DNA from: Pseudomonadota bacterium
GTDB lineage: Bacteria > Pseudomonadota > Alphaproteobacteria > Caulobacterales > Caulobacteraceae
Length of the DNA stretch: 64,000 bases
Assembly: GCA_018241995.1 (NCBI GenBank)
Contig: JAFECT010000002.1
Coordinates: forward strand, 62,001 to 126,000
Reading direction: 5' to 3'
This document shows, in pieces, positions 9,357 to 58,871 of the stretch. Every line of letters starts with the position of its first letter. Within the stretch, counting starts at the first letter, position 1. A program made the translations under genes and the position numbers. The notes beneath the pieces were generated by a model that did no database searches, was not told the origin of the DNA, and saw only the letters and a list, made by a program, of their open reading frames with translations.

Positions 9357-10586
<1,230 letters not shown>

Positions 10587-17339: not shown

Positions 17340-17867
17340 ATGACCGAGACCGCCCCACCCGTCGGCCGAGCCGAGTTCCTGGCCTTCCTGGAAGCGCAGG
17401 GGATCTCGCACCAGACCTTCGACCATCCGGCGGTCTTCACCGTGGCGGAAGGCCCGGAAATCAAGGCGCACATGCCCGGCGCCCACACCAAGAACCTGTT
17501 CCTGAAGGACAAGAAGGGTCAGCTGTGGCTGATCTCGGCCCGGCAGGACACGGTGATCGACCTGAAGCGCCTGCATCGGACGATCGGGTCGGACCGCCTC
17601 TCGTTCGGCTCGGCCGAACTGATGCTGGAAACGCTGGGCGTCACGCCGGGATCGGTAACCGCCTTCGCCCTGATCAACGACAAGGACCGCCGCATCCGCT
17701 TCGTGCTCGACAAGGCCCTGGCCGATGCGGAGCGGGTGAATTTCCACCCCATGACCAACACCGCCACCACGGGCGTATCGCAGCAGGGCTTCAGCCGCTT
17801 CCTTGCCGCCATTGGCGTGGAGCCCCTGGTCATAGACTTCGCGGCCCTGCAGGTCGCGGCGCCCTGA
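17340..17867 (+). CDS. ProX/YbaK-type prolyl-tRNA editing protein
   Basis: The 175-residue protein is a freestanding aminoacyl-tRNA editing (INS) domain. It has [20 protein letters not shown] and the conserved lysine in [11 protein letters not shown] near residue 50, as in ProX (which hydrolyses Ala-tRNAPro) and related YbaK proteins. The glycine loop [15 protein letters not shown] near residue 100 and the final [13 protein letters not shown] are intact. Which misacylated tRNA it clears cannot be decided by eye. A pyrimidine-rich leader (about 17300-17339) precedes ATG 17340. Confidence 0.9.
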
Positions 17868-17974
17868 AGCGCGGCCTTACCAAAACTTAATCAAGGCCCG
17901 CGCATCTGCGCCGCCGCTCCCGGGCCTCTTTCCCTGGTGGACGCGTGCGGCGTCGTGCTTGGGGAGATCCTTCG

Positions 17975-24707: not shown

Positions 24708-25364
24708 TTGAAACGCTCTTCCAAGACCCTGCTCGCCCTGGCCGCCGTCGCCACCGTGTTCGGCGCGCCGCTGCCGACGGCCGTGCAGGCGGCGCCCGCG
24801 GCGCTTTCGCCCGAGAACCAGGCCCTGGTGGCCAAGGCCTCGACCTATCTGCAGGGACTGAACCAGGCCGAGGGCCGGTTCGTGCAGACCGATGCGCGCG
24901 GCGGCATTTCGCAGGGCGCCTTCTACCTGAGCCGACCGGGCAAGATCCGCTTCCAGTACGAGGCGCCCTCCGGCCTGCTGGTCGTTGCGGACGGGCACAT
25001 GGTCAATGTCTGGGATCCGCGGCTGAAGAGCTTCAACGCCTATCCCCTGGGCTTCACGCCTCTGCACGTCTTCCTGGCCAAGGAGGTCCGGCTGGACCAA
25101 GGGGCTCAGATCGACCAGGTCGAGCGCACCGCCGACGGCTTTTCGATCACCGCCCGTGACAAGCGCCGCCCGCGCGACGGCGCCATAACCCTGAGCTTCT
25201 CGAATTCGCCGCTGCGGCTGAAGGAGTGGACCGTCATCGACGGCAAGGGGCAGCGCACCAAGGTGGACCTGCTGGCCTTGAAGGAGGCTTCGGGCCTGAA
25301 CCCCAAGCTTTTCCAGCTGAACAACCCCCTGCGCCCGCCCGCGAGACCCCGCGCCGGCTTGTGA
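24708..25364 (+). CDS. lolA: outer-membrane lipoprotein carrier LolA
   Basis: The 218-residue product starts at TTG 24708, five bases after a perfect GGAGG, and has a signal peptide (LKRSSKTLLALAAVATVFGAP... cleaved near VQAAPA). The mature part is a LolA beta-fold: LNQAEGRFVQTDARGG, FYLSRPGKIRFQYEAP and a C-terminal WTVIDGKGQRTKVDL. LolA ferries lipoproteins across the periplasm to LolB. An ATG at 24543 would overlap ftsK and lose the signal peptide. It is 97 bases after ftsK. Confidence 0.9.
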   Translation: MKRSSKTLLALAAVATVFGAPLPTAVQAAPAALSPENQALVAKASTYLQGLNQAEGRFVQTDARGGISQGAFYLSRPGKIRFQYEAPSGLLVVADGHMVNVWDPRLKSFNAYPLGFTPLHVFLAKEVRLDQGAQIDQVERTADGFSITARDKRRPRDGAITLSFSNSPLRLKEWTVIDGKGQRTKVDLLALKEASGLNPKLFQLNNPLRPPARPRAGL

Positions 25365-25436
25365 TTGTTCGGACACACGCAACCGTTACCGCGTTTTTCC
25401 CTTGAACTTTTTCCTGTGTCGTGTCATTTTCACCAC

Positions 25437-25553
25437 AGGCGTTCGGCGGCGGTCGAGCGCCTCCCCTGCCGGTTCTATCCCCTCCCGGCGGCGGCGTGAG
25501 AGACGATCCTCCAAGCGCCCGGCTCGATCCTCCCGAGCCGGGCGCCCTTTTTT
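25437..25553 (+). ncRNA. candidate small RNA with C-rich loops, lolA-xth gap
   Basis: The 204-base gap between lolA and xth contains three consecutive stem-loops. Hairpin 1 pairs 25437-25445 with 25454-25462. Hairpin 2 pairs 25468-25472 with 25485-25489 and has a pyrimidine loop with CCCCTC. Hairpin 3 is a 12-bp terminator stem (25515-25526 with 25534-25545) with loop ATCCTCC and a T-tract. GATCCTCC occurs twice, once unpaired and once in the last loop. TTGAAC at 25402-25407, 17 bases before CATTTT, is a weak promoter candidate that would start the RNA near 25437. It could instead be the lolA 3' end or xth leader. No named RNA family was recognised. Confidence 0.55.
25515..25553 (+). terminator. 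intrinsic terminator upstream of xth
   Basis: A perfect 12-bp stem, GCGCCCGGCTCG with CGAGCCGGGCGC, encloses a 7-base loop ATCCTCC and is followed by CC and six T residues at 25548-25553. It ends only 15 bases before the xth start codon, so it must end an upstream transcript (lolA or the candidate RNA) rather than belong to xth. Confidence 0.9.
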
Positions 25554-25568: not shown

Positions 25569-26375
25569 ATGCGACTGCGAATCGCCACGTGGAATGTGAA
25601 TTCCGTGCGCCTGCGCGCCGAGCAGGTGGCCCGTTTCGTCGACGAGCAGGCCCCTGACGTCCTATGCATGCAGGAGATCAAGTGCCGCGAGGGCGAGTTC
25701 CCGGCCCAGGCCTTCATCGACTGCGGCCTGCCGCACCTGCGCATCAAGGGCCAGAAGGGCTGGCACGGGGTCGCCATCGCCTCGCGCCTGCCGATCGAGG
25801 ATGCGCCGACCATCGAGGCCTGCCGCAACGGTCACGCCCGCTGCGTCTCGGCCAAGGTGGCCGGGGTCGAGATCCAGAATTTCTACATCCCGGCCGGCGG
25901 CGATGTCCCCGACCGCGAGCTGAACGAGAAATTCGATCACAAGCTGGACTTCTACGAGCGCCTGACCGCGGAAACGGCGCAGCGCGACCCCAAGGCGCCC
26001 CTGATCATCACCGGCGACCTGAACGTGGCGCCCGGCGAGTACGACGTCTGGAACCACCGCTACATGTCGAAGATCGTCAGCCACACCCCGATCGAGATCG
26101 AGGCGATGGAGAAGCTGAAGGCGTCGCTGGCCTTTACCGACCTGGTGCGGGAGGCGATCCCTGACCCGCAGAAGCTGTTTTCGTGGTGGAGCTATCGCTC
26201 CGCCGACTTTCGCGCCTCGAACCGCGGCCTGAGGCTCGACCACCTGTGGGCGTCGCCGGGCCTGGTCCCCGCGGCGACCCGCAACGGCAAGGTCGAAGCC
26301 CGCGTGCACGACGACGTGCGCGAATGGGAACGCCCCTCGGACCACGCCCCGGTCAGCGCGGATCTCTATCTCTAG
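25569..26375 (+). CDS. xth: exodeoxyribonuclease III
   Basis: This is the base-excision-repair AP endonuclease and 3'-5' exonuclease. The 268-residue protein shows the endonuclease/exonuclease/phosphatase fold with WNVNSVRLR near residue 9, the metal ligand Glu in MQEIKC near 35, GDLNVAPGEYD near 152, LRLDHLW near 228 and the catalytic SDHAPV near 258. An AAGG lies seven bases before ATG 25569. Its TAG stop overlaps the stop of the convergent cenR in CTAG at 26372-26375. Confidence 0.96.
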   Translation: MRLRIATWNVNSVRLRAEQVARFVDEQAPDVLCMQEIKCREGEFPAQAFIDCGLPHLRIKGQKGWHGVAIASRLPIEDAPTIEACRNGHARCVSAKVAGVEIQNFYIPAGGDVPDRELNEKFDHKLDFYERLTAETAQRDPKAPLIITGDLNVAPGEYDVWNHRYMSKIVSHTPIEIEAMEKLKASLAFTDLVREAIPDPQKLFSWWSYRSADFRASNRGLRLDHLWASPGLVPAATRNGKVEARVHDDVREWERPSDHAPVSADLYL

Positions 26376-52512: not shown

Positions 52513-53619
52513 ATGAGCTCCGATACCAGCCGCAATGCGCTCGTCGTCATCGCCGTGGTCGCCGGGGGCGCGGCCCTCTACTGGCTGCGCGACATCCTCA
52601 CGCCCCTGGCGCTGGCTGCCTTCCTGCTCATCATGATCGACGGGCTGGCGCGGTTGATCAGCCGCTTCGCGCCCAAGGCGCCGGTCTGGCTTCCACTGAC
52701 CGGAGCCATAGGCGTCATCGTCCTGACCTTCATGGTCTCCCTGTGGGTGATGGTGAACGGCGGGCGCAGCTTCGTGGGCGAGATGTCGGGCATGCACGCC
52801 CGCGCCAACGTGATCATCGCCGATATCGCGGGCCGCCTGCACCTGGGCGTGGCCCCCAGCCTGGACGAGATGCTGACCCATCTGGATCCGCAGAAGTACG
52901 CGGGCCCGATGCTGAACGGCATGCAGGGCATCGTCTCCAGCGCCTTCTTCGTCCTGATCTATCTCGGCTTTCTGATCGCCTCGCGCAGCGCCTTCGGCAA
53001 GAAGATCGTGGCCCTGTTCCCGACGCGCGGGGAGCGCGGCGAGGCCAAGCGCATCTTCGATCGCATCCGCGAAGGGGTGGAGAGCTATGTCTGGGTCCAG
53101 ACCGTGCTGGGCCTGCTGATCGCGGTCCTGGCCTGGGCGGTCATGGAGGCGGTGGGGCTGAACAACGCCCTGTTCTGGGCCTTTGTTATCTTCGTCACCG
53201 GCTACATCCCGATCGTCGGCGGGGCCATCGCCGTGGTCGCCCCGCCCCTATTCCTTCTGGTCGAGCCGGACTCCCAGCTCTGGAAGGCCGGGGTGCTGTT
53301 CGTGGCGCTGGAGGTGATCCTGTTCGTGGTCGGCAATGTGCTGCTGCCGCGGATGCAGGCCAAGAGCATGAATATCGACCCGGTGGTGGTGCTGCTGTCC
53401 CTGGCCTTCTGGGGCGCGCTCTGGGGATTGACCGGCGCCTTCCTGTCCACACCCCTGACAGTGATCGTCATGGCGGTGCTGGCCGAGTTCAAGGGTTCGC
53501 GCTGGATCGCCGTGCTGCTTTCGGGCGACGGCAAGCCCTATCCAATGGAGGATCAGGGTTCGGAGTCCCCGCCGCCGCCGAAGAAGCCACGGCGAAGGCG
53601 CGCTCCAGCCGCGGCGTGA
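52513..53619 (+). CDS. AI-2E family transporter (PerM-like)
   Basis: The 368-residue permease has about eight membrane helices, starting ALVVIAVVAGGAALYWLRDIL, with the family signature block VIFVTGYIPIVGGAIAVVAPPL near residue 215 and NVLLPRMQAKSMNIDPVVVLLSL near 275, and a basic proline-rich C-tail (PPPKKPRRRRAP). The name is historic; export of AI-2 or another small molecule is not implied. It is 31 bases after mltA. Confidence 0.92.
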   Translation: MSSDTSRNALVVIAVVAGGAALYWLRDILTPLALAAFLLIMIDGLARLISRFAPKAPVWLPLTGAIGVIVLTFMVSLWVMVNGGRSFVGEMSGMHARANVIIADIAGRLHLGVAPSLDEMLTHLDPQKYAGPMLNGMQGIVSSAFFVLIYLGFLIASRSAFGKKIVALFPTRGERGEAKRIFDRIREGVESYVWVQTVLGLLIAVLAWAVMEAVGLNNALFWAFVIFVTGYIPIVGGAIAVVAPPLFLLVEPDSQLWKAGVLFVALEVILFVVGNVLLPRMQAKSMNIDPVVVLLSLAFWGALWGLTGAFLSTPLTVIVMAVLAEFKGSRWIAVLLSGDGKPYPMEDQGSESPPPPKKPRRRRAPAAA

Positions 53620-53690: not shown

Positions 53691-53850
53691 GACCGGTGAT
53701 CCTCCCCCCCGACACCGGCCCCAAGGCGCCCGCCGCCCCGTCCCCCAGCAGTCGGCGAGCGCTAACATAGGAGTCCTCCCGCTCCCCCCTCGGGCGGACT
53801 CGAACATAGCCGCCGGACGCCCTCCCCCCGCGTCCGGCGGTTTTGTTTTT
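53691..53850 (+). ncRNA. candidate small RNA: three stem-loops with C-rich anti-SD loops
   Basis: Hairpin 1 pairs 53693-53698 with 53713-53718 around a 14-base loop containing CCTCCCCCCC. Hairpin 2 pairs 53771-53781 with 53791-53801 (ten pairs, one mismatch) around CTCCCCCCT. Hairpin 3 pairs 53810-53820 with 53830-53840 (perfect 11 bp) around CCTCCCCCC and is followed by TTTTGTTTTT. AACATAG precedes both hairpins 2 and 3. The region has no reading frame and lies between the AI-2E gene and gdhZ. Loops of CCUCC type can pair with Shine-Dalgarno sequences, as in several alphaproteobacterial regulatory RNAs. I cannot name it; a gdhZ leader with an attenuator is the main alternative. Confidence 0.7.
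53810..53850 (+). terminator. intrinsic terminator of the triple-hairpin RNA
   Basis: A perfect 11-bp GC-rich stem (CCGCCGGACGC with GCGTCCGGCGG), nine-base loop and TTTTGTTTTT at 53841-53850. It lies about 150 bases before the gdhZ start, so it must end an upstream transcript or attenuate gdhZ. Confidence 0.92.
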
Positions 53851-53929: not shown

Positions 53930-54002
53930 TAGCAGGACGGCACGGTTGATCCTTCGCGCGGCCGGTCTAGGCTCGCTGCGGACATTCGGGGAACTAGAGT
54001 TC

Positions 54003-57000
54003 ATGGACGGCGCCGGCGCTCCGCAAACCCTGACTATCGATACCTTGAAGAAGGCCTTCGCCCAGGCGCTGGGACGGCCCGGGGCGACGGAGCTGGACCG
54101 GCTCGAACATTCCTTCCTCGAACAGGCTCTGGCGGACTACGTCGCCGACGAAACCCCGGAACTGAGCCCCGAGGACTTCGCCGCGGTCCTGGCCGACTTC
54201 TGGAAATACGGCGAGGTGCGCGAAGGCGGGACCGGCGCCCTGATCCGTGTGCATCGCGGCGAGGGCGCGGGCGGCAGGCCCCTGAACTACGACCTTTTGG
54301 AGATCGTGCAGGACGACGCGCCCTTCCTGGTCGACAGCGTCATGGGCGAGCTGGGCGAGCAGGGCGTCTCGGTGCGCGCCATGTTCCACCCGGTGCTGAC
54401 CCTGGAGCGCTTTGGCCAAGGCCTGCGCCGGCCGCAGGGCTCCAGCCACCGCGAGTCCACCATCCTGGTCGTGCTCGACGCCCTGACCGAGGACCAGCGC
54501 AACGCCGTAGCCGAGGGCGTGCGCCAGACCCTGGCCGACGTCCGCATGGCGGTGGACGACTTCAAGCCCATGGAACAGATGATGGCGCGCGCCATCGCCG
54601 ACCTGGAAAAGGGCGTGCCGGGCCGCGACGCCGCCGAGGTGGCGGAAGACATCGCCTTCCTGCGCTGGCTGCAGGCCGACCGCTTCGTGTTCCTGGGCGC
54701 GCGCAACTACGAGTTCCCGCGCACCACCGACGGCGCCTACGAGCCGGAAGAGCCCATGCCCCAGACCGAGCAGGCGCTGGGCGTGTTGCGCGACCCCAAC
54801 CGGCCGGTGCTGCGCCGCGCCCACGAACCGGCGGTGCTGACGGCCCAGATCCGCAAGCAGCTCGACCTCGGCGAGCCGGTGACGGTCGCCAAGTCGAACC
54901 TGAAGTCGCGCGTCCATCGCCGCGTGCACATGGACTATGTGGGCGTGCGCCGCTTCGGTCCGGACGGGAAGCCCGCGGGCGAAATCCGCTTCGTGGGCCT
55001 GTTCACCGCCGAGGCCTACGACCAGACCGCATCGGATGTGCCGCTGATCCGCAAGAAGGTGGCGGGCGTGCTACGCCGCGCGGCCTATGCGCCGGGCAGC
55101 CACAACGAGAAGCGCCTGAAGAACATCGTCGAGAACTATCCGCGCGACGAGCTCTTCCAGATCACCGAAGACGACCTGCTACGCATCTCCACCGGCATCC
55201 TGCACCTGTTCGACCGGCCGCGCGTCAAGCTGTTCATCCGCAAGGACCCGTTCGACCGCTTCGTCTCGGTGCTGCTCTACGTGCCGCGCGAGCGCTACGA
55301 TTCCGGCGTGCGCGAGCGGGCCGGCCAGATCATGGCCAAGGCCTATTCGGGCCGCATCTCGGCCTACTATCCGCAGCTGTCGAACACGCCGCTGACGCGG
55401 GTGCACTACATCATCGCCGTCACGCCGGGCGAGCACGCCGACCCCGATCCGATCGAACTGGAGCGCCAAGTCGCCGAGACAGCGCGCAGCTGGCCCGACC
55501 TGTTCGTCGACGCCGCCCGTATCGCCGGGGTGAACGAGGCCGAGCGCACCGTGCTGGGCCAGAAGTGGGCGCCGGCCTTCCCGATCGCCTATCGCGAACG
55601 CTATCCGATCTCCGAGGCCCTGACCGATCTGGCCCAGTTCTCGCGCCTGGGCGAGGGCCGCATCTGGGTGCGCGCCTTCCGCACCACCGAGGACACCAAC
55701 CTCCAGTTCCGCTTCAAGCTCTACCGCCGGGGCCATCCGGTGGCCCTGGCCGACGTGCTGCCGATCCTGGACCACATGGGTCTGAAGGGGCTGGAAGAAT
55801 ACGCTTACGCCGTCCGCCCCGAGGGTGAGGAGCCGGTGTGGATCCACGAATTCCTGCTGGAAGACCCGCGCGGCGCCCAGCTGGTGTTCAAGGACGTGAA
55901 GGACCCGTTCGAGGAGGCCTTCGTCGCCGCCTGGACCGGCCGCACCGAGAGCGACGGCTTCAACCGCCTGGTGATGGAGCTCGGCATCCACTGGCGCGAG
56001 GCCGCCCTGGTGCGCGCCTTCGCCCGCTACCGCGCCCAGTCGGGCCTGGACCCCAGCCAGGCGGTGCAGGAAGCGGCCGTGCGCGACCATCCCGAGGTCA
56101 CGCGCCTGCTGCTGGCCTTCTTCCACGCCAAGTTCGATCCGCGCACTGCCGATACGGCCGAGGCCCGGGTCAAGCGCGCCGAGGACCTGTTCAAGCAGAT
56201 CCAGGACGCCCTGCAATCGGTCACCAGCCTGGACGACGACCGGGTGCTGCGCCGCCTGGCACTGCTGATCCAGGCGATGAAGCGCACCAACTACTATCAG
56301 GCCGGCGCCGACGGTCAGCCCAAACCCTATATCTCCTTCAAGGTGGCCAGCCGCGAGATCGCGGACCTGCCCCTGCCCAAGCCCTATCGCGAGATCTTCG
56401 TCTGGGCGCCCTATGTCGAGGGCGTGCACCTGCGCTTTGGCCCGGTCGCGCGCGGCGGCCTGCGCTGGTCGGACCGGCGCGATGACTTCCGCACCGAGGT
56501 GCTGGGCCTGGTAAAGGCGCAGCAGGTCAAGAACGCGGTGATCGTGCCGGTGGGCTCCAAGGGCGGCTTCTATCCCAAGGCCCTGCCCCGAGGCGGCACG
56601 CCCGACGAGGTCCGCGCCGAGGGCGTGCGCGCCTACAAGACCTTCCTGGCGGGCCTGCTCGACATCACCGACAACCTGGACGCCGATGGCAAGGTGGTGC
56701 GCCCGCCCATGGTCGTCGCCTGGGACCAGGAAGACCCCTACCTCGTCGTCGCCGCCGACAAGGGCACGGCGACCTTCTCCGACATCGCCAACGGCGTCTC
56801 CGCAGACTACGGCTTCTGGCTGGGTGATGCGTTCGCCTCAGGCGGCTCGCAGGGCTACGACCACAAGGCCATGGGCATCACCGCCCGCGGCGCCTGGGAA
56901 GCGGTGAAGCGCCACTTCCGCGAGATGGGCAAGGACATCCAGACCGAACCCTTCACCTGCGTCGGTGTCGGCGACATGTCTGGCGACGTCTTCGGCAACG

Positions 57001-58871
57001 GCATGCTGCTGTCGAAGGCCACCAAGCTGGTCGCCGCCTTCGACCACCGCGACATCTTCCTCGACCCCAATCCGGACCCTGAAACCAGCTGGAATGAGCG
57101 AGCGCGCATGTTCGCCCTGCCGCGCTCCTCCTGGCAAGACTACGACAGGAGCCGGATCTCCCCGGGCGGCGGCGTCTATTCGCGCTCGCTGAAGACGATC
57201 CCCATCTCGCCGGAGGTCAAGGCGGCGCTGGGCGTCGACGCCGACGAGATGGCGCCGACAGACCTGATGCGGGCGATCCTGAAGTCCAAGTGCGAACTGC
57301 TCTACTTCGGCGGCATCGGCACCTATCTGAAGGCCCGTTTCGAGACCGACCTGCAGGTCGGCGACAAGGCCAACGACGCGGTGCGCATCAACGCCGACGA
57401 ACTGCGCTGCCTGGTTGTCGGCGAGGGCGCGAACCTGGGCGCCACCCAGGCCGGCCGGATCGCCTTCGCGCGGCTGGGCGGACGCATCAACACCGACGCC
57501 ATCGACAACTCGGCCGGCGTCGACACCTCGGACCACGAGGTCAACATTAAGATCCTGACCGGCGCCTTGGAGCGTCAGAGCAAGATGGACCGGGAGGGCC
57601 GCAACGCGCTCCTGGCCTCGATGACCGAGGAGGTCGGCCACCACGTGCTCGAGCACAACTACGACCAGACCCTGTGCCTGACGCTGCAGCAGGCGACGGC
57701 GCCCTACGACCTGGACGCCCAGGCGCGGTTCATGGCGTGGCTGGAGCATCACGGTAAGCTCGACCGCCAGGTGGAAGGCCTGCCCTCGCCCGCGGCCATC
57801 GGCGACCTCGCCGCCCAGGGCCTGGGCCTGACCCGCCCGGAGCTGGCGGTGATCACCGCCTACGCCAAGATCGACCTGTCGGAGGACATCGTCGCCTCCC
57901 AGGCGCCCGAGGACGCCTTCTTCGAGCGGACGCTCGTGACCTATTTCCCCGAGCCGATGCGTCAGTTCGAGGACGAGATGCGTCGCCACCGGCTGCGCCG
58001 CGAGATCATCGCCACGGTCCTGGCCAACGAGATCGTCAACATGACCGGCGCCACCTTCCCGGTGCGCCTGCGGGCTTCCGCGGAGTGCGACACCACCGCC
58101 CTGGTCATCGCCTTCGAGGCCGCGCGCCAGGTGTTCCGCCTGAACGAGGCCTGGGCTGCGGTCTCGGCGCTGGACCTGAAGATTCCGTCGGAGGCCCAGA
58201 TCGCGCTCTATCGCGAAATCTCGGTGGTGCTGCGCCGCCAGACCTTCTGGCTGGCCCGCCGCGCGGCGCGGGGTTCGACCTCGGTCCAGGCCCTGATCGA
58301 GGCCTATCGCCCGGCCGCCGACGCCCTGCGCAGCGAAGGCCCCGGAGGCCTCTCGGACTTCGAACAGGCGCAGGTGCGGCGTCGCGCCGAGGCCTTCGCC
58401 GCCGCCGGCGCGCCGCAGGACCTGGCGATGGCCGTCGCCGCCCTCAGGCCCCTGACCGCCACCACCGACATCTCGGACCTGGCGCGCAAGGTGAACTGGC
58501 CGGTGGAATCGGCCGCGCGCCTGTACCACCAGGTCGGCGCCGCCTTCGACTTCGACCGCCTGAGGGGCGCGGCCGGATCGCTCAGTTCCAGCGACCACTA
58601 CGAGCGCATGGCCGTGCGCCGCCTGATCGCCGACTTCCTGACCGAGCAGGCGGCCCTGACCCAGGCCATCGCGCGCGCTTCGGCCCCCAGCGCCGGCGCC
58701 AGCGTCCAGGCCGCACAGGCCGCGATCCGCGGCTTCATCGGCGAGCGCGCGCAGGCGGTCGAGGCGGTGCGGCGCACGGTTGACGAGATCGAATCCGCCG
58801 GCGCCGGCTGGAGCTTCGCCAAGCTGACCATCGCCAATGCGGCGCTCAGGGAGTTCGCGGCCTCGGCCTAG
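54003..58871 (+). CDS. gdhZ: NAD-dependent glutamate dehydrogenase, 180-kDa class
   Basis: This giant enzyme converts glutamate to 2-oxoglutarate and ammonia with NAD+. In Caulobacter the homologue GdhZ also helps dismantle the FtsZ ring. The 1622-residue product has a long regulatory N-terminal half with ACT-like parts (LVDSVMGELGEQGVSVRAMFHPVL), the catalytic core with RGGLRWSDRRDDFRTEV near residue 817 and KGGFYPK, the NAD loop GVGDMSGDVFGNGML near 986, and a helical C-terminal domain. ATG 54003 is chosen; the frame opens 19 codons earlier. Large antisense frames here are shadows. Confidence 0.95.
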   Translation: MDGAGAPQTLTIDTLKKAFAQALGRPGATELDRLEHSFLEQALADYVADETPELSPEDFAAVLADFWKYGEVREGGTGALIRVHRGEGAGGRPLNYDLLEIVQDDAPFLVDSVMGELGEQGVSVRAMFHPVLTLERFGQGLRRPQGSSHRESTILVVLDALTEDQRNAVAEGVRQTLADVRMAVDDFKPMEQMMARAIADLEKGVPGRDAAEVAEDIAFLRWLQADRFVFLGARNYEFPRTTDGAYEPEEPMPQTEQALGVLRDPNRPVLRRAHEPAVLTAQIRKQLDLGEPVTVAKSNLKSRVHRRVHMDYVGVRRFGPDGKPAGEIRFVGLFTAEAYDQTASDVPLIRKKVAGVLRRAAYAPGSHNEKRLKNIVENYPRDELFQITEDDLLRISTGILHLFDRPRVKLFIRKDPFDRFVSVLLYVPRERYDSGVRERAGQIMAKAYSGRISAYYPQLSNTPLTRVHYIIAVTPGEHADPDPIELERQVAETARSWPDLFVDAARIAGVNEAERTVLGQKWAPAFPIAYRERYPISEALTDLAQFSRLGEGRIWVRAFRTTEDTNLQFRFKLYRRGHPVALADVLPILDHMGLKGLEEYAYAVRPEGEEPVWIHEFLLEDPRGAQLVFKDVKDPFEEAFVAAWTGRTESDGFNRLVMELGIHWREAALVRAFARYRAQSGLDPSQAVQEAAVRDHPEVTRLLLAFFHAKFDPRTADTAEARVKRAEDLFKQIQDALQSVTSLDDDRVLRRLALLIQAMKRTNYYQAGADGQPKPYISFKVASREIADLPLPKPYREIFVWAPYVEGVHLRFGPVARGGLRWSDRRDDFRTEVLGLVKAQQVKNAVIVPVGSKGGFYPKALPRGGTPDEVRAEGVRAYKTFLAGLLDITDNLDADGKVVRPPMVVAWDQEDPYLVVAADKGTATFSDIANGVSADYGFWLGDAFASGGSQGYDHKAMGITARGAWEAVKRHFREMGKDIQTEPFTCVGVGDMSGDVFGNGMLLSKATKLVAAFDHRDIFLDPNPDPETSWNERARMFALPRSSWQDYDRSRISPGGGVYSRSLKTIPISPEVKAALGVDADEMAPTDLMRAILKSKCELLYFGGIGTYLKARFETDLQVGDKANDAVRINADELRCLVVGEGANLGATQAGRIAFARLGGRINTDAIDNSAGVDTSDHEVNIKILTGALERQSKMDREGRNALLASMTEEVGHHVLEHNYDQTLCLTLQQATAPYDLDAQARFMAWLEHHGKLDRQVEGLPSPAAIGDLAAQGLGLTRPELAVITAYAKIDLSEDIVASQAPEDAFFERTLVTYFPEPMRQFEDEMRRHRLRREIIATVLANEIVNMTGATFPVRLRASAECDTTALVIAFEAARQVFRLNEAWAAVSALDLKIPSEAQIALYREISVVLRRQTFWLARRAARGSTSVQALIEAYRPAADALRSEGPGGLSDFEQAQVRRRAEAFAAAGAPQDLAMAVAALRPLTATTDISDLARKVNWPVESAARLYHQVGAAFDFDRLRGAAGSLSSSDHYERMAVRRLIADFLTEQAALTQAIARASAPSAGASVQAAQAAIRGFIGERAQAVEAVRRTVDEIESAGAGWSFAKLTIANAALREFAASA

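Follow-up and report, generated by a model that had tools for sequence, protein, structure and literature searches.

A probable RusT ortholog between lolA and xth in a Caulobacteraceae genome and its relatives in Alphaproteobacteria

The window (the whole stretch of 64,000 nucleotides of Caulobacteraceae DNA that was analysed) carries lolA and xth on the plus strand, and the interval between the two genes holds a promoter-like block, a row of hairpins and an intrinsic terminator. The predicted 5′ end of the RNA lies 72 bases after the lolA stop codon on the same strand, and the xth of the window is 74-81% identical to other Caulobacteraceae xth genes. The features, in window coordinates, are as follows.

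24708..25364, plus strand: lolA, the upstream neighbour (Pfam PF03548, E 3e-29).
25402..25407, plus strand: -35 element TTGAAC, aligned to TTGACTTTT, its counterpart before rusT in relatives.
25421..25436, plus strand: imperfect palindrome GTGTCATTTTCACCAC, a candidate repressor operator, possibly for NtrX, found by its pattern match to relatives.
25425-25430, plus strand: -10 element CATTTT, inside the palindrome, after a 17-nt spacer from TTGAAC.
25437..25553, plus strand: RusT sRNA, predicted at ~117 nt, with a predicted 5′ end (covariance models R1 and R2).
25437..25462, plus strand: stem-loop 1, 11 bp with a short G-rich loop (fold).
25466..25494, plus strand: stem-loop 2 with the seed, where conservation in the family is highest (fold).
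25473..25486, plus strand: seed UUCUAUCCCCUCCC, matching RusT nt 45-57; the equivalent of RusT C53 is 25482.
25503..25516, plus strand: segment GACGAUCCUCCAAG, without a U run, matching the RusT Hfq footprint (nt 73-84) by alignment; Hfq binding here is a prediction.
25505..25512, plus strand: extra, lineage-specific anti-SD motif GAUCCUCC within the Hfq-footprint segment.
25515..25553, plus strand: intrinsic terminator with a 12-bp stem, loop AUCCUCC and U6 (fold and sequence).
25569..26375, plus strand: xth, exonuclease III, the downstream neighbour (PF03372, E 3.7e-26).

This layout bears out the original prediction of a free-standing sRNA gene, separate from xth, that has its own promoter and terminator and C-rich anti-Shine-Dalgarno loops; the observations behind it are confirmed, whereas its interpretation is partly supported. 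The three hairpins that it described are present and strong (25437-25462, 25466-25494 and 25515-25545), and they end in the terminator as claimed, with the loop ATCCTCC at 25527-25533, T6 at 25548-25553 and a gap of exactly 15 bases from the T-tract to the ATG of xth at 25569. A second copy of GATCCTCC is found just before the terminator (25505-25512), where it is unpaired or held in a weak hairpin of 3 pairs. TTGAAC and CATTTT are likewise in place at the 17-nt spacing; this promoter had been called weak, and it does go unreported by a generic sigma-70 scan, yet its place is that of the promoter conserved in relatives. The folding energy of the RNA is -65.1 kcal/mol as against -49.9 +/- 3.7 for its shuffles (z -4.1), with 0 of 200 shuffles as stable. 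CCTCC occurs four times in 116 nt where 0.56 are expected under mononucleotide shuffling (P about 0.002), and <0.05% of plus-strand intervals of the same size have as many; across the whole window ATCCTCC is not enriched (8 seen, 9.8 expected).

In C. crescentus, the interval between CCNA_03820 (lolA) and CCNA_03821 (xth) encodes the sRNA RusT (CCNA_R0199), as described by Vogt 2024 (PMC11005374). According to that study, RusT is bound by Hfq, repressed by NtrX and raised under iron starvation or chelation or by zinc; mRNAs of TonB-dependent receptors, among others, are repressed when they pair with its nt 45-57, including C53 (C53G was tested), and its Hfq footprint at about nt 72-87 is AU-rich and precedes the terminator (PMC11005374). 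Among Caulobacteraceae, the study states homologs for close relatives of C. crescentus, and it aligns the genus Caulobacter (PMC11005374). We transferred the RusT numbering via a C. vibrioides contig (L066), and with the start assumed at the A of AUGGCG, nt 45-57 would read CCUAUCCCCUCCC. This published seed CCUAUCCCCUCCC, the loop of stem-loop 2, is conserved at 25473-25486 of the window, with 12 of 12 bases of CUAUCCCCUCCC identical. The window RNA shares with RusT of C. crescentus its place between lolA and xth on the strand of both genes, its length class, the seed CUAUCCCCUCCC in stem-loop 2, the terminator and the promoter position, as well as an architecture of four stem-loops of which the last is a terminator with a U tail (stem-loop 3 of the window has only 3 pairs). 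It differs in the sequence of stem-loop 1, in having GAUCCUCC in place of the U-rich Hfq segment, and in its CCUCC terminator loop, with four CCUCC motifs in all.

Conservation in relatives gave the decisive test, the original prediction having named the absence of the hairpins there as one result that would count against it, and that conservation is very strong. The covariance model R1 was built from 33 Caulobacteraceae copies without the window, in an alignment (A1) of 33 of 37 non-redundant copies that leaves out L016, which is close to the window, and the longer outliers L031, L067 and L082; R2 rests on 26 copies drawn from four further families of this order (alignment A2, 26 of 27, L239 being a near-duplicate). 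R1 matches the window at 25429-25549 with 63.5 bits (E 3.8e-18), and R2 at 25423-25549 with 40.7 bits (E 3.1e-8); R2 matches no other place in the whole genome of this bacterium at E <= 1e-5. Two other R1 matches in the window, at 9684-9789 and 17811-17931, are treated as chance; by eye, the first and its surroundings look coding, and the second takes in the 3′ flank of an ORF as well as its end. Among the best 80 loci of an xth search of named genomes, with Caulobacteraceae recognised by titles and match identities, 76 have the motif [AT]CCCCTCCCG within 600 bases upstream of xth, and a covariance model finds the RNA ~2.3 kb upstream of xth at one more (L054), bringing the total to 77 of the best 80. 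The RNA was not found upstream of xth at L055, L077 and L090, the last offering 299 upstream bases only.

We conclude that 25437-25553 on the plus strand is very probably the ortholog of RusT, a gene for a trans-acting, Hfq-assisted sRNA. The grounds in this analysis are the orthology of sequence, structure and locus, the conserved seed and promoter block, and the terminator; how the RNA is expressed, bound by Hfq and directed to targets in this organism we infer from C. crescentus. In a search of open-licence papers for an sRNA between lolA and xth or for RusT, Vogt 2024 was the only paper about RusT, and a 2025 Caulobacter paper appears to name RusT in the reference list only (PMC12559287).

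That the region might have no function of its own and be just the 3′ UTR of lolA with its terminator is a reading suggested by the position of the RNA directly after lolA on the same strand and by a promoter that is weak by consensus. It is highly improbable in view of the invariant loops on covarying stems, the conserved promoter block and the L054 locus, where the RNA is kept although it lies ~2.3 kb from xth; moreover, the C. crescentus ortholog is reported as an independent transcript of 118 nt (PMC11005374).

The likeness to GsrN suggested in the original prediction, in contrast, proved wrong. GsrN, a sigma-T-dependent sRNA of peroxide stress, resembles the window RNA in its similar size and accessible C-rich loop, and such C-rich loops together with a stable 5′ domain are what speak for it (PMC5869019). 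The GsrN homologs of Caulobacteraceae, however, lie near ecfG, nepR or phyR (C. crescentus excepted) and have sigma-EcfG promoters (PMC5869019), whereas no sigma-EcfG site (GGAAC-N15-18-CGTT) was found in the window region, where the best partial match is 7/9, and the NepR matches fall on contigs C1 and C11 while the window is on C12. The target tracts of GsrN are of the CGGGGGG type (PMC5869019), as against the GGGAGGGGAU that the window seed calls for, and the locus between lolA and xth is the one reported for RusT (PMC11005374). GsrN is thus set apart by the published descriptions of locus, promoter and pairing sequence, and as the identity of this RNA it is scarcely credible. ChvR was likewise rejected by its locus, CCNA_00157/00158 next to recF (PMC6237742).

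The several C-rich loops of the window RNA also recall the rhizobial multi-loop anti-SD RNAs of the ar14, ar7 or CcsR/cuckoo type. The window RNA has in common with Rfam ar14 (RF02344) and ar7 (RF02342) that its hairpins, the final terminator included, bear C-rich or CCUCC loops, and it shares an anti-SD loop motif with CcsR1 (RF02791) and the cuckoo-type CCUCCUCCC RNAs. The corresponding Rfam matches are sub-threshold and all lie far below gathering (ar14 28.6 bits against 58.8, ar7 24.7 against 60, CcsR1 14.5 against 65.3), and the window RNA lacks the CCUCCUCCC nonamer. At L217 (33.5 bits, E 0.007) ar7 aligns at full length and the three C-rich loops match in register, but against a sequence profile of A2 (or A1) the ar7 consensus does not rise above 2000 shuffles. 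A class-wide ar7 search gave 3 sub-threshold matches in 385 genomes, none of them beside lolA or xth. Smr7C/ar7 is, we presume, the same RNA as the C7 candidate of S. meliloti. That candidate is reported between polA and SMc02851 (PMC2780559). Membership of the window RNA in this rhizobial family is very improbable, and we regard ar7 as either a look-alike or a very remote relation. PmaR, a further RNA with C-rich loops, was set aside, being described as confined to Agrobacterium and near relatives (PMC6234868).

A separate RNA-like locus lies elsewhere in the window at 53745-53845 on the plus strand, between ORFs 52513-53619 and 53946-58871, with C-rich loops GTCCTCCCGCTCCCCCCTC and a terminator loop CCCTCCCCCC. 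It scores 43.7 bits with Rfam ar14 (gathering 58.8; E 8.9e-7 for 601 bases). This is probably the first locus of the original prediction, and it is a different RNA from RusT.

Returning to the RusT ortholog, its wealth of CCTCC is peculiar to the window copy: of 83 aligned copies, 74 have one such motif, 6 have two, 2 have three and the window alone has four. One of its two copies of GATCCTCC coincides in position with the C. crescentus Hfq footprint, the other with the terminator loop. Near relatives (L016 with an AACCTCC loop, L003 with a CCCTC loop) resemble the window copy, and the terminator loop contains CTCC or CCTC in 39 of the 83 copies and is constant as UUCUCCAGU in 23 copies on differing closing stems; in the genus Caulobacter it is not conserved (e.g. 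L066, L078). C-rich terminator loops thus recur across the family, so that the loop noticed in the original prediction is a recurrent family property. The segment corresponding to the U-rich Hfq site is present in the window but GC-rich (GACGAUCCUCC), its U run having been replaced by GAUCCUCC, and for this reason Hfq binding is uncertain in the window RNA, although the U6 tail remains. The rusT terminator hairpin appears tandemly repeated between rusT and xth at L089 (three copies), L058, L019, L004 and L086. Diverged copies of the RNA within the same family are seen at L227 (2032-2145, minus strand) and L228 (1989-2104, minus strand), with the seed loop CCCCUUCC and a changed stem-loop 2.

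The RNA extends well beyond Caulobacteraceae. R1 gives matches in other families of the order, with 200 of 299 genomes matched at E <= 0.001, false positives included. From the better of these matches 36 regions were fetched, 4 from the own family and 32 from families f2-f5; of the latter, 27 lie beside lolA and/or xth (in 13, both genes fall in the stretch that was fetched) and 5 lie elsewhere, a proportion that, as the 32 were taken from the top of the list, gives no rate for all R1 matches. The RusT-like RNAs of these other families (L216-L225, L230-L237, L239-L243, L245, L246, L249 and L250) carry, in 26 of 27 cases, a 5′ hairpin GCG(T/C)(T/C)G(C/T)CCCCC..GCT or a close form of it, ~20-35 bases before the seed. 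This C6-C8 loop, GCGUYGYCCCCCCGCU, is nearly invariant outside Caulobacteraceae and lies at the position that stem-loop 1 has in the window RNA. In the 26-row alignment, both sides have changed in 14 of 25 pairs and 96.1% of cells pair; none of 500 shuffles reaches that covariation, and sliding the partners destroys the signal.

Across the class, R2 finds the RNA at E <= 1e-5 in at least 27 of 385 genomes, with scores up to 93 bits; the count is a lower bound because 8 candidates were scored per genome. Once the own genome, another from the same family and one from the same order are set aside, 24 class-wide loci remain (within L252-L276), and both lolA and xth lie within ~1.5 kb in 11, one of them in 8 and neither in 5. 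Thus 19 of the 24 loci, in further alphaproteobacterial families, have lolA and/or xth within ~1.5 kb, and most of the class-wide loci show the C loop. The class-wide searches for ar7, which was nearly empty, and for ar15, which gave no match, illustrate that such searches can miss families. In Rfam 15 the window has no match at gathering, and the 24 relatives scanned gave no relevant match at gathering; the RusT family is wider than we found reported and is without an Rfam entry.

The promoter block is conserved together with the RNA. GTGGCA-N4-TGNCAC is found at the promoter in 76 of 76 relatives scanned, the site in each being chosen as the best match to that pattern, and the palindrome in relatives lies directly 3′ of a TTGAC-like -35 element with the -10 element inside it. 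The palindrome of the window, GTGTCATTTTCACCAC, is degenerate, with 2 mismatches, and related sites (e.g. GTGGCGTTATTGTAAC) are present in most of the 22 copies checked from other families. In C. crescentus, NtrX is reported to occupy PrusT by ChIP-seq, its loss to derepress RusT, and further regulators to be found at PrusT (PMC11005374); an operator over the -10 element fits repression of RusT by NtrX. NtrX motifs reported elsewhere are CAAN3-5TTG and GCAN9TGC (PMC9223101). Fourteen hfq regions were fetched, of which L141 was left out for its different gene order. With a matrix of the rusT palindrome, the ntrY promoter takes first rank in 7 of 13 genomes if the AT-rich spacer is counted, and in just 1 of 13 if the arms alone are scored. 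As the ntrY matches depend on that spacer, we put the assignment of the palindrome to NtrX forward as a proposal and claim no link. Across L132-L145, a conserved GTTGA-N6-GGCAC-like site is seen ~36-39 bases before ntrY in most genomes examined; its spacing is similar to that of the rusT palindrome, and its match is not significant with arms-only scoring. By eye, no GANTC (CcrM) site is seen in window 25365-25440, upstream of rusT, and GAATC or GATTC is seen upstream of rusT in several relatives (e.g. L017, L020).

Carried over from C. crescentus, the mechanism in this organism would begin with repression of the rusT promoter by NtrX in iron-replete cells, which iron starvation or excess zinc would lift. 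The CCCCUCCC loop would then pair with G-rich translation start regions, mainly those of TonB-dependent receptors, and RusT with Hfq would repress the paired mRNAs, so that the outer membrane would be remodelled. In the lineage of the window, the additional GAUCCUCC and the AUCCUCC of the terminator loop may provide extra anti-SD pairing surfaces, and Hfq may be held mainly via the U-tail, as we propose from the loss of the U-rich internal site.

Predicted pairing was compared for receptor and control start regions, with gene starts picked by a simple SD/ATG rule and with 30 of 63 receptor matches examined in C. vibrioides and 30 of 34 in the own genome. In the positive control, C. vibrioides G315, where 27 of 30 receptor loci had a usable start, the start regions of the 27 receptors pair more strongly with the seed (median -14.5 kcal/mol) than those of 81 controls do (median -11.0 kcal/mol; p 0.0009), and 0 of 100 shuffled seeds produce a gap of that size. 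In the own genome, the medians for 30 receptors and 47 controls are -12.6 and -10.8 (p 0.006), a difference that 58% of shuffled seeds match and that is therefore no seed-specific receptor signal. Single receptors of the own genome have long perfect matches, such as GGGAGGGGA at the SD of L168.

Taken across the class, these findings make it likely that RusT is not specific to Caulobacter and is among the oldest syntenic regulatory RNAs of Alphaproteobacteria, located between lolA and xth in many families and probably in several orders. Its ancestral form would have paired through two C-rich loops, GCGUYGYCCCCCCGCU and AUCCCCUCCC, both strongly conserved and frequently joined by a third such loop in the terminator; the 5′ C6-C8 loop would have been lost in Caulobacteraceae, and the lineage of the window would have gained CCUCC both in its Hfq segment and in its terminator loop, giving a multi-site anti-SD RNA. 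The second C-rich loop was invisible to the published Caulobacter work because the genus lacks it, and GCGUYGYCCCCCCGCU is a ready candidate for an additional seed. With the identity of the locus settled as very probably RusT, what had been an open guess turns into predictions for the genus, in which the RNA would be induced by chelation, controlled by NtrX and active in the repression of receptors.
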